Position numbers and translations under genes: made by a program
Shown here: piece after piece, positions 5,642 through 14,191 of the stretch
How positions within the stretch are numbered: the first letter of the stretch is position 1
Layout: the number at the start of each line of letters is the position of its first letter
Notes under the pieces: model-generated
What the model saw: only the letters and a program-made list of their open reading frames with translations
What the model was told of the DNA's origin: nothing
Databases searched by the model: none
DNA from: Haloferacaceae archaeon
GTDB taxonomy: Archaea; Halobacteriota; Halobacteria; Halobacteriales; Haloferacaceae
NCBI GenBank assembly: GCA_003554115.1
Contig: PWFE01000062.1
Location: 1 to 19,159, forward strand
DNA length: 19,159 nt
Direction of reading: 5' to 3'

Positions 5642-6688
5642 CTACTCGGTGGGCCACAGCCCATCGAACCGCTGTTCACAACGTTTACTGCCGGTCGGGA
5701 GCCACGCATGGCCGTCACTGATTTCGATTGGATCGGCTGCCAGATCCTCGGAGAGTAACGAGCCGGTTGCGAGCCCACACGCGGACACCTCTGGGAGAGC
5801 GGCTGCAACGTGAACTGCTGCCGTGCGGGCGACGACCGCATCGACAGTCGTTGTAACAGTCGGCGTCAGGCCAGCCGATTGGGCCTGCATGGCGGTCTCA
5901 ATCGTCCGTGTGGGACCACCGAGAGCCATCGGTTTGAGGACGGCGACGTCGGCTGCTTCCGCATCAAGTATCGTCGCAAGCGAGTTGATCGATAACGACT
6001 CATCGACCGCAATGTCGACCCCATGTCCACGGAGTGCGGCCAGTCCCTCAAGATCGTCGGCCGCAAGCGGCTGTTCGAGATACTCGATGTCGACCGCGAG
6101 TTCCGAAAGCAGACGATCCGCCTCGGTCCGACTCCATGCGCCGTTGGCATCAAGCCGAATCCGTGCGCGCTCGCCAACCGCACGGTCGACTGCTCGAATG
6201 CGGTCGAGATCCGCACTCACTGACCGAGCACCGACTTTGAGTTTGAGCCACTCAAAGCCCTCCTCAACCGCGGCGGTTGCGGCCGCGACGGTGGTCTCGA
6301 CATCGCCGTCACCAATGGTGGCGTTCACCGGGACGGACTCGGCCGGTGTTCGCGATCCGACAAACTGTTCGTGAAGCCACTCCGCCAGCGAGCGGTTCGC
6401 TAAACGGGCACGTCCGTCACAAACCGCGAGGTCGACCGAATGCGCGGCGGCAGGTGTCTCTGTGGGGTCTGGCCGGTTCGGCGGCATCTCATCGGCCTGA
6501 ACAACTGACTGAAGGGTTTGTCGACACGTCTCGTAGGATTCGGTCCAGCCAGCCAGCGGTGTGGCTTCACCGAGTCCCTGGTGGCCCTCAACAGTGAGAC
6601 CGATCAACAGCCCTCGGCGGTCAGTGATCTTGCCAGCCGCAGTCCCGAGTGGCGTGGCCAACGAAAGGGAAAACGGTTCAACCCACAT
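5642..6688 (-). CDS. menC: o-Succinylbenzoate synthase
   Basis: A 348-residue enolase-superfamily enzyme that dehydrates SHCHC to o-succinylbenzoate in menaquinone synthesis. Visible residues: the catalytic lysine motif LKLKVG with Lys149 and Lys151, metal ligands Asp180 (RLDANGAW), Glu205 (EQPL) and Asp229 (AVDES), and the second catalytic lysine Lys252 (LKPMALGG). The N-terminal capping domain reads PFSLSLATPLGTAAG. Its ATG overlaps the stop of menA by one base (TGATG), so the two are translationally coupled with menA first. menE often follows menC in haloarchaea but here halocyanin follows on the other strand, so CoA ligation must be encoded elsewhere. N-succinylamino acid racemase is the related alternative; the menA neighbour favours MenC. 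Confidence 0.9.
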   Translation of the reverse strand: MWVEPFSLSLATPLGTAAGKITDRRGLLIGLTVEGHQGLGEATPLAGWTESYETCRQTLQSVVQADEMPPNRPDPTETPAAAHSVDLAVCDGRARLANRSLAEWLHEQFVGSRTPAESVPVNATIGDGDVETTVAAATAAVEEGFEWLKLKVGARSVSADLDRIRAVDRAVGERARIRLDANGAWSRTEADRLLSELAVDIEYLEQPLAADDLEGLAALRGHGVDIAVDESLSINSLATILDAEAADVAVLKPMALGGPTRTIETAMQAQSAGLTPTVTTTVDAVVARTAAVHVAAALPEVSACGLATGSLLSEDLAADPIEISDGHAWLPTGSKRCEQRFDGLWPTE

Positions 6689-7623
6689 CAGAGTGCCAAC
6701 CCGATCCCGAACAGCAGCGAGTAGGCTGCCAGTAGTTTACCAGTCGTCTCCAGAGCAGGGTTCAACGCGGCTCCCGACGTTTTCGTCCAGACGGTGCGTG
6801 TAACCATCGCCGCAATCGGGAGCGTGAGCAGTGGCAGTAGCACAGTCAGTGACCAGCCGTCGACTGCCCAGAGCCAGACGGGAACCAGATACGCCAGCCC
6901 GAACAGCCCGGTGTACTCCAGTCGACTCACCCGGTAGCCGAACCGGACGGCGAGCGTCCGTTTGCCGGTCGTTACGTCCTCCTTGCGGTCTCGGATATTG
7001 TTTACCACCAGTATGTTCGTCGAGATTGCGGCCACCGGAAGGCTGGCCAGAAACGCCGTTGCTGTGACTGTTCCCGGTGGGATTGTCGTCGACAGCGGTG
7101 CGGCCAAGACCGCTGCGGCCTGGACGTAGTAGGTACCCATTACCGCGATCACGCCAAAAAAGACGAAGACGAACAGGTCACCTAGGCCGTGATAGCCGAG
7201 TGGGTAGGGCCCGCCCGTGTAGGCAATGCCTGAAATCACCGATAAGAGGCCAATAACTAAGATAGGGGCTCCTCCGACGTAGACCAGATAGCTGCCAACG
7301 ACGATGGCTGTGGCGAACGTGAGATACATTGCACGCTTGACACGCTCGGGGGCAATAATGCCAGACTGGGTAACACGGGTGAACCCCTCACGGGCCTCAG
7401 TGTCTGCGCCCTGAATCGCATCGTAGTAGTCGTTGGCGAAGTTGGTACCGATCTGGATCAGTGCCGCACCAACAAAGGCCGCAAGTAGCGGTCCTAGTGA
7501 AAAAACGCCGTCGGCCCACGCTAGGCCACCACCGACGACAATCGGCGCAGCTGCCGCCGGCAACGTCTGTGGACGAGCCGCCGCAAGCCACGCGCGGGTT
7601 CCTGACAGTTCCGTTCCGCTCAT
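6688..7623 (-). CDS. menA: 1,4-Dihydroxy-2-naphthoate polyprenyltransferase
   Basis: A 311-residue UbiA-superfamily membrane enzyme that attaches a polyprenyl chain to dihydroxynaphthoate in menaquinone synthesis. The first Asp-rich motif is NFANDYYDAIQGAD (61-74) and the second is NNIRDRKEDVTTGKRT (208-223). Both bind the Mg-polyprenyl diphosphate. There are about eight hydrophobic segments, starting near AAAAPIVVGGGLAW and ending with GKLLAAYSLLFGIGLAL. The length is normal. It is the first gene of the menA-menC operon. The AT-rich upstream region (7690-7745) holds TATA-like sequence for the minus strand 75-105 bp before the start, so a 5' leader of some tens of bases is likely. Confidence 0.93.
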   Translation of the reverse strand: MSGTELSGTRAWLAAARPQTLPAAAAPIVVGGGLAWADGVFSLGPLLAAFVGAALIQIGTNFANDYYDAIQGADTEAREGFTRVTQSGIIAPERVKRAMYLTFATAIVVGSYLVYVGGAPILVIGLLSVISGIAYTGGPYPLGYHGLGDLFVFVFFGVIAVMGTYYVQAAAVLAAPLSTTIPPGTVTATAFLASLPVAAISTNILVVNNIRDRKEDVTTGKRTLAVRFGYRVSRLEYTGLFGLAYLVPVWLWAVDGWSLTVLLPLLTLPIAAMVTRTVWTKTSGAALNPALETTGKLLAAYSLLFGIGLAL

Positions 7624-9692: not shown

Positions 9693-10121
9693 ATGACCGT
9701 TGTCAGCGTCTCCATGCCGGAAGACCTGCTCAGTCGAATCGACTCGTTTGCCGACGAACACGGCTACACCGGCCGCAGTGAGGTCGTCCGCGAGGCTGCC
9801 CGGAACCTGCTGGGGGAGTTCGAGGACAAACGACTCGAAGACCGTGATCTGATCGCAATCGTCACTGTGTTGTTCGACTACGAGACGACCAGTGTCGAAG
9901 AACGCATGATGCATCTCCGCCACGAACACGAACACCTCGTCGCCTCGAACTTCCATAGTCACGTCGGCAACCATTACTGTATGGAGCTGTTTGTCCTCGA
10001 AGGACAACTCGACGAGATTTCGACATTCGTCGGCAAGATCAGAGCGACACAGGACACGCTGTCAGTTGATTACTCGGTGATGCCCGTCGACGATTTTGAC
10101 TCCTTAGAGAACTTCAACTAG
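9693..10121 (+). CDS. nikR: NikR-family nickel-responsive repressor
   Basis: A 142-residue protein with a ribbon-helix-helix DNA-binding part (1-45: [17 protein letters not shown], then [17 protein letters not shown]) and a C-terminal ACT-like metal-binding part. The four high-affinity nickel ligands of E. coli NikR (His76, His87, His89, Cys95) align with His77 (RHEHEH), His88 and His90 (NFHSHV) and Cys96 (NHYC), all at an offset of one. It should therefore sense Ni(II) and repress nickel uptake or other metal genes. No nickel transporter or urease gene is in the window, so its targets lie elsewhere. Its TAG stop shares CTAG (10118-10121) with the opposite PAP2 gene. Confidence 0.88.
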
Positions 10122-10906
10122 TCCTCGCCGATGTATCGGTCGGCAAGATACACACACACACCAGCCAGCACAATACCGAAGACCACGTCAGTCGCCCAGT
10201 GGATACCGAGATACATTGTCGAAATGATAACACTGACCGCTAAGACAGTCGCAATCGCCAGCCAGTAGGGGTACTCCTCGCGTGTTTTGTATGCGAAGAT
10301 GGCGACCGTCGCCGACAGTGATGTGTGAAGCGACGGGAACACGTTGGCTGGATCGTTCACTTCGGTCGTAATCATCTGGTACTGTGCATCGGTTTGGTAC
10401 AGCAAGTTCGTAAACACGACATCGTTGAAGTTTCGTGGCCCATAAGCCATGAAAATAATGTACAGTATCAGTCCAATAAAGTAGTTGAAACTGTAGGCCC
10501 CAACAAGTCGTTTCAGTGTCTCACGTTCCGAGAGGGCGGCGTAGGCCAACAGCGGAAAGACGAGTAGAAACGCATACCCGTACATATAGACCGCTGAAAA
10601 GTAGGTTGTGAGTGCCTCGGTCTCGAACGACTGAACAACGGCGACGAACTCACCTTCTATCGAGTAAATCGTGTTCGTGATGTTTAGTCCGATGATCCGC
10701 GAGACCTCTTGGGCAGAATCACGCAGCACTGAGTTGAGTGCTAACACGACGAGCAGTACCCCAAAGTATGGGGCAAACTCACGAGATCGTGGCCTGAACT
10801 CTTCGGCGAGTATCGACAACCGGCTTCGGCCAATAATCACTGTGCTGAACAGACAAATCACCGCGACGATGGCCACAAATTCGACGAGTAACTGAGTTCG
10901 ATACAT
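10118..10906 (-). CDS. PAP2-family membrane phosphatase
   Basis: A 262-residue membrane protein with about six hydrophobic segments. The PAP2 catalytic motifs are PSLHTS (191-196, His194) and YLGIHWATD (232-240, His236 and Asp240). An upstream GPRNF (156-160) may serve as the first conserved motif, which is not in the canonical KxxxxxxRP form. Such enzymes act on phosphatidate, polyprenyl diphosphates or inositol-lipid intermediates at the membrane surface; the substrate cannot be read here. The long N-terminal membrane region resembles Aur1/IPC-synthase-type PAP2 proteins. Its start overlaps the stop of the upstream solute-binding lipoprotein by one base (TAATG), so the two are translationally coupled. 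It converges on nikR. Confidence 0.86.
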
Positions 10907-12843
10907 TATCTGATCTGTGAGATGAGTTCGTTGTCAGCGGTGTACTGATAGCCGATGTCACGAAACTGTTCGCGGGCGCGTTCGACATCAAGGTCACCAT
11001 CCGTCCCGATAAACGGGACCTCGGGATCCGATCCATCCCAGCGTAGCGAATCAGCCAACCACTCAGTTTCGGCAAGTGGGCTCGCAATCGGTCGACCGTA
11101 CCCATCGAAGTACTGTTCGACGAGTCTCGACTTATCGATGACTTGGGCAATCAGTCGGCGCACGTTTGGGTTCCGCAACGGTTCTCGGCGAGTGTTAAAT
11201 CCGAGATGATAAAACGCGTTCGACTGGTGCTCGATCAGATCAAGATCCGAATCAGCCTCGATAGTGCCGACCTCCGTCGGTCTGAGTGTGGCGATCGTCG
11301 CATCGGCTTCACCGCTTCGTAGCAGTTCCATGGCCACCGTATCCGAGCCAACTGAGAAGACTGTGAGGCGCTCGAACGGCAGTGGCCCATCGTAGGCTTC
11401 CGGTGGCGGCTCGAACCGCTCTTCGGGTGGTATTTCTGTGTCGTCTACCGTGGACTCACTGGCGTCGGCTTCGGCGATTGTGCTGTTGGGCTGTGTCGTC
11501 GACTCGTTTGAAACAGATTCGTTTGCGGCGTCGACATCGGCCTCGTCATCGGCGTCGGGTTGTGTGCGAAGCCGCCATAAGAAATGCGAATCGAACCGGG
11601 TGAACTCAACGATGTCGTCGCCGGGCTCTTGGTCGAATTGGATCGGCCCGCTGCCGACCGCCTCTTGATTAGCTGTGGTGAGTGCGACGGTTGTCTCGCC
11701 GCTCCGGTTGCGAGGTCGTTCGATTCGTGTTCGGGTCTCCCAGATGTGGGCCGGTAGTATGGGTACAGCAAGCGCTCGCTTGGCGACCTGTTGGCTTGCG
11801 TTAGTAAAGCGAATCCGCAACTCGCGGGAGTTTTGGACGTGTATGGCCTCGACCAGCGAGATTCGACCACGGAACCGCTCGGATGGAATCGGACGAACGG
11901 CCTCTCCCAGAGAGGTATCACGGAGAAACTCGTAGGTAAAGTAGACATCGAACGCGGTCAGTGGTTCGCCGTCGTGCCACTCAAGGCCCTCACGAAGCGT
12001 GATCGACACTTCGAGTTGGTCGTCCGTCTCGTCCCACTGATACTCGCGGGCCAGCCACGGAATGTAGTCTCCGTTCTCTTCGAGCACAAGCGGATCGTAC
12101 AGCAGGTCGACGAGCGATTCGCCCTGCTTGTAGTCGGCCGAAATCGGGTTTCTGTTTCCCGTGATCCGGTCGTCGACAACGGCTAATCCGAGCGTTCCAG
12201 GGTCGCCGGTTGGATTTAGCTTCAACAGGTTGTGAGGTCGAGTCGGTGCACGCTGGTTCCAACTGTCGGCTTCGAACGAGTTGGTCCGAACCCCACTCAG
12301 ATGGGTCGGTGCGACAAGCGGAACGAACGGCTGAGTTCGGGCCAACAGCTCTTGTAGTTCGTCGACCGCCTGCTGTCGACGCTCACCGCTGGTTGATCGC
12401 TGACTGTCGAGCAGTTGGTCGCTGCTCAGATGTGTAAACCCATACGGGTTCTGCCAGCCCAACGCCCCATCGAACGTCGAACGAAACAGCGGGTAGAGCA
12501 GATCTGGATCTGGCGGCTGTGGATACGGAAACTGTCCGACGTAGATGTCGAAATCATGGTTCAACAACACCTGCTCGGAAAAGCCTCTGACGTCGACGAG
12601 CCTTAGCTGGGCGTCGAAGCCGACGGCTTCGAGTTTGGAGCGCAACTCTTGGGCAATCCTAATACCAAACGGATCGAGATCGGCGTACAGCGTCGTGATG
12701 TCGACCGAGAGTGGAGTCTGTTGAGACCGACCAACACGAGTCTGCACACGCCCGATACAGCCCGCAGCTGCGGCAGAGAGACCAGCGGCTCCAGCCAGCA
12801 GCGACCGACGGGAAAGCCGTGGGGTTGTATCGGAGCCAATCAT
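10906..12843 (-). CDS. ABC-type solute-binding lipoprotein, family 5, with apparent circular permutation
   Basis: A 645-residue Tat lipoprotein: SRRSLLAGAAGLSAAAAGC gives twin arginines at 12-13 and lipid-modified Cys29. The rest is a peptide-binding (SBP_bac_5) protein in an unusual order. Residues about 44-205 (ELRSKLEAVGFDAQLRLVD, DFDIYVGQF, PDPDLLYPLF, AVDELQELLARTQPFVPL) look like the normal C-terminal part. Residues about 238-645 (SLVDLLYDPLV, LAREYQW, ITLREGLEWHDGEPLTAFDV, then GSGPIQF, ELLRSGEADA, NPNVRRLIAQVIDKSRLVE) look like the normal N-terminal and middle parts. An acidic Ser/Thr-rich insert of about 55 residues lies at 428-485. No permease or ATPase gene is adjacent. It is coupled to PAP2. 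The frame stays open upstream to 13254, but the Tat signal fixes the start. Confidence 0.87.
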   Translation of the reverse strand: MIGSDTTPRLSRRSLLAGAAGLSAAAAGCIGRVQTRVGRSQQTPLSVDITTLYADLDPFGIRIAQELRSKLEAVGFDAQLRLVDVRGFSEQVLLNHDFDIYVGQFPYPQPPDPDLLYPLFRSTFDGALGWQNPYGFTHLSSDQLLDSQRSTSGERRQQAVDELQELLARTQPFVPLVAPTHLSGVRTNSFEADSWNQRAPTRPHNLLKLNPTGDPGTLGLAVVDDRITGNRNPISADYKQGESLVDLLYDPLVLEENGDYIPWLAREYQWDETDDQLEVSITLREGLEWHDGEPLTAFDVYFTYEFLRDTSLGEAVRPIPSERFRGRISLVEAIHVQNSRELRIRFTNASQQVAKRALAVPILPAHIWETRTRIERPRNRSGETTVALTTANQEAVGSGPIQFDQEPGDDIVEFTRFDSHFLWRLRTQPDADDEADVDAANESVSNESTTQPNSTIAEADASESTVDDTEIPPEERFEPPPEAYDGPLPFERLTVFSVGSDTVAMELLRSGEADATIATLRPTEVGTIEADSDLDLIEHQSNAFYHLGFNTRREPLRNPNVRRLIAQVIDKSRLVEQYFDGYGRPIASPLAETEWLADSLRWDGSDPEVPFIGTDGDLDVERAREQFRDIGYQYTADNELISQIR

Positions 12844-12934: not shown

Positions 12935-14191
12935 TTAGAGATAACCGAACAGCGGCAGTGCAAGCCCGACAAGCCATGCCGCCACGGCCACGACAACCAG
13001 CGGCGGATCCGTTTTATCGGCTGTCGGCTCGTCTTCGCGCCCGGCGTTGTGTGAGTCGACGAGCGTGACCGCCAACACCCCGAGAGCCAGCAGCAGCCCG
13101 ATCCGGTGAAGCACCAGTTGAATCGGGACGATACCGATGCCGATGGCAGCGAAATCGTAGACGAATCCCGCACCCATCCCGACAATCGTAAAGCCGAACG
13201 CACTGAGCGGGCGGAGCCGTGGTGCGAACGTCGCGACAATGGCGGGTGGGCCAACCACGATCAACGGATACAACAACCCCGCGATGTACTGCGGTGAGTA
13301 CCCTGAGACGATCGACTCAAGAGCGATTCCAATCGCTCGAACCCCCAACAGCAGCCCTACCAACAAGGCTGCCAGCACGAAGCCATAGCGGTTTGTCTTC
13401 GCCCACTGGCCGAGATTACCGCCAACCCGACCGAGTGCCGTCCGGGTATCACGGGCGAAGACAGTCGACAGCAGACCGATTACCGCCAGTTCAATGCTCG
13501 AAATCCAGCCATCGCTCCAGCCGCCATCGAGACCGTAGTGCGTTCGGCTGACGTCCTCGACGAACGGCTGGTCGATAAAGTCGTCCTCGATAACGCGGGC
13601 GGGTCCGTGTATATCAGTGACAGTGTGGCGAAGCCGGAACCAATCGAAGTACTCCTCGTGGACCTGAATGGCGGTCCAGTCGTCGGCTTCGGAGGTGTAC
13701 GCCCGGATGTGGCTTCGTGACCCGAGATACGCCCCGCTGTGGAGCTGGTAGCTTTCGTCGACCCACTCGGCATCGCCGCCGTGCGGACTCGAATCGATGA
13801 ACGAATACCGTGTCGAACCGTCGGCGTCATCCCAGTCGACGCCGTCTTGGACCGACAGGTTGTAGCTGTCGGGATCTGCATCCTCTTCGGTTTCGTCCAT
13901 CGGCTCCCACTCAAGTTCTTCACTGTCGGTCAACGCCTGTTTTGTCCGGTCCGGATCGCCGTGAATAACGACGTTGATCGCCAGCGTTCGGCCGTCTACG
14001 GATTCCGATCGGCTGGTGTATGGCCACAGGTAGCTTCCGTTTTCGGTCGGCTGAATCAGTCGGTCGTCGTCGACGGTTGCGATCTCTTGGTCGGGCTCGT
14101 CGCTCGGAAAGAATCCGACACTCCCGGCGAGGAGATACGCGCCAGCGAGAACGATAACGGCGGCAATAAGTAGCGTTCGCCGTTGGCTCAT
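12935..14191 (-). CDS. Polytopic membrane protein of unknown function, possibly LssY_C-related
   Basis: A 418-residue protein. One hydrophobic segment (6-26) anchors an extracytoplasmic-looking acidic domain (about 30-228), then about six membrane segments follow (near 232-247, 270-291, 302-323, 328-351, 353-378 and 397-418). The soluble domain reads LAINVVIHGDPDRTKQAL, then GAYLGSRSHIRAY, then WTAIQVHEEYFDWFRLRHTV and DIHGPARVIEDDFID. This run of features recalls the LssY C-terminal domain, which in bacteria is found with PAP2 phosphatases, but the likeness is by eye only. It lies upstream of the solute-binding/PAP2 pair on the same strand with a 91-bp gap. I cannot assign a function with confidence. 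Confidence 0.75.
   Translation of the reverse strand: MSQRRTLLIAAVIVLAGAYLLAGSVGFFPSDEPDQEIATVDDDRLIQPTENGSYLWPYTSRSESVDGRTLAINVVIHGDPDRTKQALTDSEELEWEPMDETEEDADPDSYNLSVQDGVDWDDADGSTRYSFIDSSPHGGDAEWVDESYQLHSGAYLGSRSHIRAYTSEADDWTAIQVHEEYFDWFRLRHTVTDIHGPARVIEDDFIDQPFVEDVSRTHYGLDGGWSDGWISSIELAVIGLLSTVFARDTRTALGRVGGNLGQWAKTNRYGFVLAALLVGLLLGVRAIGIALESIVSGYSPQYIAGLLYPLIVVGPPAIVATFAPRLRPLSAFGFTIVGMGAGFVYDFAAIGIGIVPIQLVLHRIGLLLALGVLAVTLVDSHNAGREDEPTADKTDPPLVVVAVAAWLVGLALPLFGYL

Follow-up and report, generated by a model that had tools for sequence, protein, structure and literature searches.

A probable natural circular permutant among family-5 solute-binding proteins of haloarchaea as one instance of a recurrent rearrangement

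The locus and the order of parts in the permuted binding protein

The window, by which we mean the whole stretch of 19,159 nucleotides analysed here (contig PWFE01000062.1 of assembly GCA_003554115.1, Haloferacaceae archaeon), carries on its minus strand a gene for a family-5 solute-binding protein (SBP) in which the C-terminal lobe precedes the remainder of the protein. The gene, the parts of its product and the two neighbours that matter most are the following:

10906–12843, minus strand: permuted family-5 SBP gene, 645 amino acids plus stop
12757–12843, minus strand: residues 1–29, putative twin-arginine signal (RLSRRSLLAG) up to a lipobox-like AAAGC, read from the sequence
12283–12705, minus strand: residues 47–187, C-terminal lobe shifted to the front (profile positions 370–504 of 527), from profile alignments
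12151–12282, minus strand: residues 188–231, old C-lobe end joined to the old mature N-terminus, lying between the matches and seen in the rotated alignments
11485–12150, minus strand: residues 232–453, old N-terminal lobe (profile positions 62–249), from a profile match
11377–11484, minus strand: residues 454–489, most of an acidic Ser/Thr/Asn-rich insert, from the family alignment
11020–11376, minus strand: residues 490–608, middle part (profile positions 233–353), from a profile match
10909–11019, minus strand: residues 609–645, helix (DVERAREQFRDIGY) forming the new C-terminus, from alignments
10118–10906, minus strand: PAP2_3 membrane phosphatase, a conserved neighbour that shares one base with the stop codon of the SBP gene
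12935–14191, minus strand: 418-residue membrane protein just upstream of the SBP, from neighbour comparison

By Pfam the protein is a member of family 5, as SBP_bac_5 (PF00496) scores 147.7 bits against a cut-off of 32.4; the match covers residues 260–637 and profile positions 2–283 of 368, and the last part of the model has no counterpart at the C-terminus. Comparison with a reference profile of 527 positions, built from 33 unpermuted haloarchaeal SBP_bac_5 ORFs, recovers all segments of the N-lobe, the middle and the C-lobe, and every part of a single SBP is present once: residues 47–187 match positions 370–504 (39 bits), residues 232–453 match positions 62–249 (67 bits) and residues 490–608 match positions 233–353 (58 bits), while the signal (residues 5–36) matches positions 8–40 weakly (8 bits). 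The usual order of N-lobe, middle and C-lobe is not found in this protein, and with its C-lobe in front it is a permuted variant. The helix DVERAREQFRDIGY, with which the chain now closes, directly precedes the C-lobe in unpermuted relatives. The Pfam TAT_signal model reaches E 0.71 on the window SBP, below its cut-off; the twin-arginine motif and the lipobox are visible in the family consensus. A NikA-type nickel-binding protein is not indicated by the NCBIfam nikA equivalogs, which give 44.5 bits against a cut-off of 600 and 32.5 bits against one of 393.

Alignment in both orders had been set beforehand as the test of a permutation, and the rotated order was superior to the native one in both comparisons made. 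In a single-sequence scan, rotation of the mature window chain reduced three matches to two and raised the best single domain from 66.7 to 103 bits, the full gain being obtained only with cuts at about residues 189–489, which leave the link between the old end and the front lobe intact. The full-sequence HMM score is nearly unchanged by rotation (168.0 bits native, 172.7 bits at best among the rotations shown) because HMMER sums separate pieces. A family profile of 94 proteins aligned with the unpermuted profile over 287 columns in native order (score 320, E 3.6e-40) and, with residue 213 as the rotation point (residues 41–212 placed after 645), as a single path over 425 columns (score 424, E 1.1e-53); taken by itself, the front lobe aligned with columns 425–561 of the 583 columns of the unpermuted template (E 5.7e-16). 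The profile map and the rotated alignment thus bear out the original prediction that the C-terminal lobe comes first and the N-terminal and middle parts follow. Its lobe limits need revision: the order stood, and the front lobe spans about residues 45–205 and the remainder about 213–645, in place of 44–205 and 238–645. The protein ends at ...VERAREQFRDIGYQYTADNELISQIR, 13 residues beyond the end that had been quoted.

The acidic Ser/Thr/Asn-rich insert starts near residue 428 and extends over about 11389–11562 (residues ~428–485); in the alignment its length is very variable, being long in closer relatives of the window SBP, whereas many other members have a short insert or none.

The PAP2_3 neighbour and the possible function of the window family

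The phosphatase gene behind the window SBP matches PAP2_3 (PF14378) with 65.5 bits against a Pfam cut-off of 27, and its position is a family trait. Among 80 window-family loci fetched of 275 in the species-genome collection, the gene caller places a PAP2_3 gene within 400 bases of the SBP end in 69, with a gap of at most 33 bases or an overlap in 64 of these, and a profile search adds six directly behind the SBP (L026, L027, L029, L032, L049 and L076), giving about 75 of 80. Anywhere in the fetched stretch, a profile built from the PAP2 genes of the same loci finds PAP2_3 in 78 of the 80; as to the exceptions, the gene lies 2.2 kb further on in L005 and only upstream of the SBP in L067 and L079, L011 is without PAP2, and the sequence of L077 stops at the SBP gene. 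The neighbours keep the motifs PSLH and YLGIHWxtD, which we take to be PAP2-family motifs. From this gene order we tentatively suggest that the window SBP may bind a solute for the PAP2_3 phosphatase or regulate it.

It is just as conceivable, if somewhat short of probable, that the window protein is an ordinary, albeit permuted, SBP of an ABC importer whose permease is encoded elsewhere in the genome, the PAP2 gene being incidental; a distant permease and a role in the service or control of PAP2 are equally possible. Other permuted SBP families do sit in such a context: an ABC ATPase lies on the same strand within 5 kb at 17 of 20 of their loci (L186, L191 and L192 being the exceptions by the same ATPase motifs), and at eight of these loci all ten neighbouring ORFs tested are BPD_transp_1 permeases. 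PAP2 was found beside the SBP in none of these 20 regions, whereas its pairing with the window family is near-universal and tight, and no ABC motif was found on the same strand within 5 kb of the window-family SBP in 81 loci, in a test that rests on ATPase motifs (the permease motif is insensitive and found 1 permease in 20 control regions) and in which several contigs end within 5 kb. The importer reading also draws on the scores of the window protein on nickel and oligopeptide SBP models, although these are below cut-off, and on the NikR-type regulator next door (9693–10121), which converges on the PAP2 gene and scores 74.4 bits on NikR_C, above the Pfam cut-off and below the NCBIfam NikR cut-offs. 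The NikR-type gene is, however, present in only 8 of the 81 window-family loci, and the nickel link that it suggests is a lead only. A 140-residue neighbour in Natrialbales (L039:12767–13189) matches no NikR model.

A relative of the 418-residue upstream protein is encoded within five genes of the SBP in 42 of 81 loci, and in 35 of the 81 it is the next gene upstream and has the same orientation; an LssY_C-like domain was considered for it and rejected, as four members gave zero Pfam matches at E up to 10. Elsewhere in the window, a menA-type prenyltransferase gene and an o-succinylbenzoate-synthase-like gene lie adjacent at 5642–7623, where two menA-type models score above cut-off and the menC models below.

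Recurrence of the permuted order among family-5 proteins

The window case does not stand alone: family-5 binding proteins have been rearranged in this way repeatedly, and permuted members are common in Halobacteria. Among 109 SBP_bac_5 proteins from 19 chosen Halobacteria genomes, at least 42 are permuted, 61 have the usual order and 6 are without a listed C-lobe piece, the 42 of 109 being a biased fraction in that the genomes were hand-picked from 39, the first ten with permuted-looking matches in mind. Split by set of chosen genomes, 28 of 65 proteins are permuted in the first and 14 of 44 in the second, among the matches listed; the count leaves out signal-only matches and one C-lobe-only fragment (G018:C2), and cut points of the type found in protein L085 (see below) would score as unpermuted in it. 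A permuted SBP_bac_5 protein is likewise present in 37 of 40 haloarchaeal regions, which were picked mostly for short Pfam matches. The classified proteins, 175 in number, mostly hand-picked and partly redundant, comprise 72 permuted, 102 usual and 1 ambiguous case.

According to where the profile matches end, the permuted proteins fall into three cut-point classes, and within each class the chain ends join at nearly the same place. In class A, to which the window protein belongs, the chain ends after the YDPxxA helix and most matches end at profile positions 362–373; those of the window family end at 329–373, a wider range because its last helix aligns weakly. Class B matches end at positions 336–346, before the YDPxxA helix, and class C consists of the single protein L085, cut near position 464. 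Class A includes a bacterial protein (P0198), in whose family 119 of the 120 members listed (itself included) of 4007 found in all are permuted, the exception being a partial sequence of 346 residues. Those named among the listed members are mostly Bacillota (Thermaerobacter, Carboxydochorda, Neomoorella and others), with single Armatimonadota and Betaproteobacteria MAGs, while most entries are without a name. In alignment with the solved structure 5u4o, residues 244–554 of the bacterial protein correspond to chain residues 57–359 and residues 75–226 to chain residues 366–520, which places the class A cut between chain residues 359 and 366 of 5u4o. By the domain limits that we assume for DppA and OppA, this cut lies in domain III and both old ends lie in domain I, which would shift the lipid anchor out of domain I into domain III. 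The solved relatives have the usual order by best-stretch coordinates, both for the bacterial protein (60 listed of 107) and for P0001 (60 listed of 80).

Several permuted proteins have unpermuted homologs that are close enough for a piecewise comparison. Identities in the larger and smaller swapped pieces amount to 52% and 50% for L141/P0197, 48% and 48% for L085/L137 (with a smaller piece of 56 residues), 54% and 40% for P0198/P0199, and 40% and 31% for L088/L082. A permuted Natrinema protein (P0122) was compared with 30 unpermuted proteins, among whose named sources are Haloplanus, Salinirarus and Halolamina; the two pieces are 43–52% and 31–44% identical, and the old C-terminus passes straight into the old mature N-terminus, as read from the sequences. 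Here one and the same ABC-transporter operon begins with a permuted homolog at some loci and with an unpermuted one at others. Four permuted loci were run in the operon comparison and the figures cover two of them, which share permeases of 54–71% and ATPases of 54–70% identity with five unpermuted loci; in contrast, the operons of four other permuted loci gave 29–39% for the permeases and 44–51% for the ATPases. Since the permuted protein takes the leading place that an unpermuted homolog has in the same importer operon, transport function is probably kept in this family.

A tree of 60 chosen rows, 30 per order and all rearranged to the usual order, which carries a warning on letter make-up, contains starred branches that force at least six order changes. 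Its bootstraps give 7–8 changes (5–95% range) and a single change in 0% of 200 trees, and a single origin, with all permuted proteins held together, is rejected (p-AU 1.1e-6). A quick tree of 130 of 174 classified proteins, from which near-copies and some unpermuted rows were dropped and which has SH-aLRT support only and warnings on long branches and odd letter make-up, gives seven order changes, six of them forced. These counts cover gains and reversals alike. In the 60-row tree the window clade comprises 15 purely permuted class-A rows, which a branch at 100/99 separates from the rest; in the 130-row tree the permuted class-A clade has 30 rows at SH-aLRT 93, under the star limit. The window clade is without a close unpermuted sister among the tree rows, and its own permutation event therefore looks old. 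Unpermuted proteins of the Haloplanus type branch inside permuted ones (P0186 and P0187 versus P0164–P0196, P0186 lying outside at 97/91), possibly reflecting two gains at the same cut point or one reversal to the usual order.

We regard the window protein as a natural circular permutant of the family-5 (SBP_bac_5) fold with a probability of roughly 0.93, a judgement based on its sequence and those of its relatives. A fusion of two partial SBP genes, that is, a stray C-lobe fragment placed before a truncated SBP, would look alike in order alone; the missing unpermuted sister of the window clade and the unequal identities of the pieces in the P0198/P0199 and L088/L082 pairs agree with it. Such a fusion is nevertheless very improbable, given that in five other cases the two pieces share their unpermuted homologs, that every part occurs once and that the ends meet so consistently within each class. 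An assembly or gene-calling artefact, against which the original prediction had already argued, can be dismissed: the C-lobe stands in front in 120 of 120 listed database relatives (the best 120 of 299, including one that is identical with the query), which come from many sources, and the permuted order runs through one uninterrupted frame in isolate genomes.

The proposed search for the same order in other haloarchaea was thereby successful as well, the named ones among these best 120 of 299 relatives being archaeal and nearly all haloarchaeal by name, with many lacking a name. Single-piece matches to the window family above 500 bits occur in 59 of 97 haloarchaeal genomes. Natronorubrum bangense carries tandem copies of the permuted SBP (L068, L069) and has identical-score matches on its chromosome and a plasmid, as if a stretch had been duplicated between them. 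In one protein of 847 residues (P0093) a piece resembling the upstream gene reads through into the SBP, which may be a gene-model fusion.

Proposed rearrangement, known systems and meaning

In the natural circular permutant proposed here, the chain keeps, by its sequence, one complete binding protein. The old C-terminal lobe was linked to the former mature N-terminus, and the new ends arose within the C-terminal lobe, immediately behind the YDPxxA..LLxEAGY helix. The protein is predicted to be exported via its Tat-type lipobox signal and to fold as the usual two-lobed clam, which would be tethered to the membrane from domain III and not from domain I, judging from the position of the cut. Duplication and fusion followed by loss is a known route to circular permutation, and the rearrangement most likely arose from a tandem SBP gene duplication with fusion, after which the outer parts would have been lost. 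A protein with a duplicated C-lobe, the expected intermediate, was found in none of 461 proteins with SBP_bac_5 matches; L085, which had been flagged, represents the third cut point.

The permuted SBPs share all sequence parts of the fold with DppA, OppA, NikA and AppA (family 5 or cluster C, PF00496), and they resemble DppA/OppA-type proteins in their predicted lipoprotein-type export signal and, in many permuted relatives, in the ABC operon; they differ in that the order is C-lobe, N-lobe, middle, whereas DppA/OppA-type SBPs have the usual one. The closest published precedent that we found concerns another fold class: Tp0684 (TpMglB-2), the glucose-binding lipoprotein of Treponema, is described as a natural circular permutation that also occurs in Gram-positives, and its authors suggest that the permutation may relate to anchoring and propose the designation 'Type Ic / Cluster Bc' (PMC4990184). 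The two cases are alike in that a lipid-anchored binding protein has been circularly permuted in nature; as far as that report describes it, TpMglB-2 is a type I or cluster B protein that binds sugars and represents one sub-class (PMC4990184), while the permuted family-5 SBPs belong to cluster C, have three cut points and changed order at least six times. In the open-licence literature we found no report of circular permutation in family-5 or haloarchaeal SBPs and no paper on PAP2_3 paired with a solute-binding protein.

Beyond the original prediction, the analysis adds the recurrence of the permutation, unpermuted homologs with about 50% identity and the PAP2 neighbour of the window family. 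Family-5 SBPs vary in the order of their parts much more than had been assumed. Where a protein family contains natural circular permutants, they usually go back to one ancient event, and the at least six order changes within one superfamily stand in contrast to this pattern. The permuted and unpermuted homologs, with 31–54% identity in the swapped pieces and in one case the same operon type, form natural before-and-after pairs, and these make the cost or gain of the permutation in folding, anchoring and permease docking directly testable. Pfam-style domain matches look truncated on permuted SBPs, and order-dependent alignments, trees and structure searches may mishandle many haloarchaeal SBPs. 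One possible, if doubtful, wider picture is that the C-lobe is a permutation hot spot in archaea and bacteria and that the window clade left ABC transport to form a two-gene surface unit with PAP2_3. The conserved PAP2 pairing hints in this respect at a possible transporter-free use of the SBP fold.
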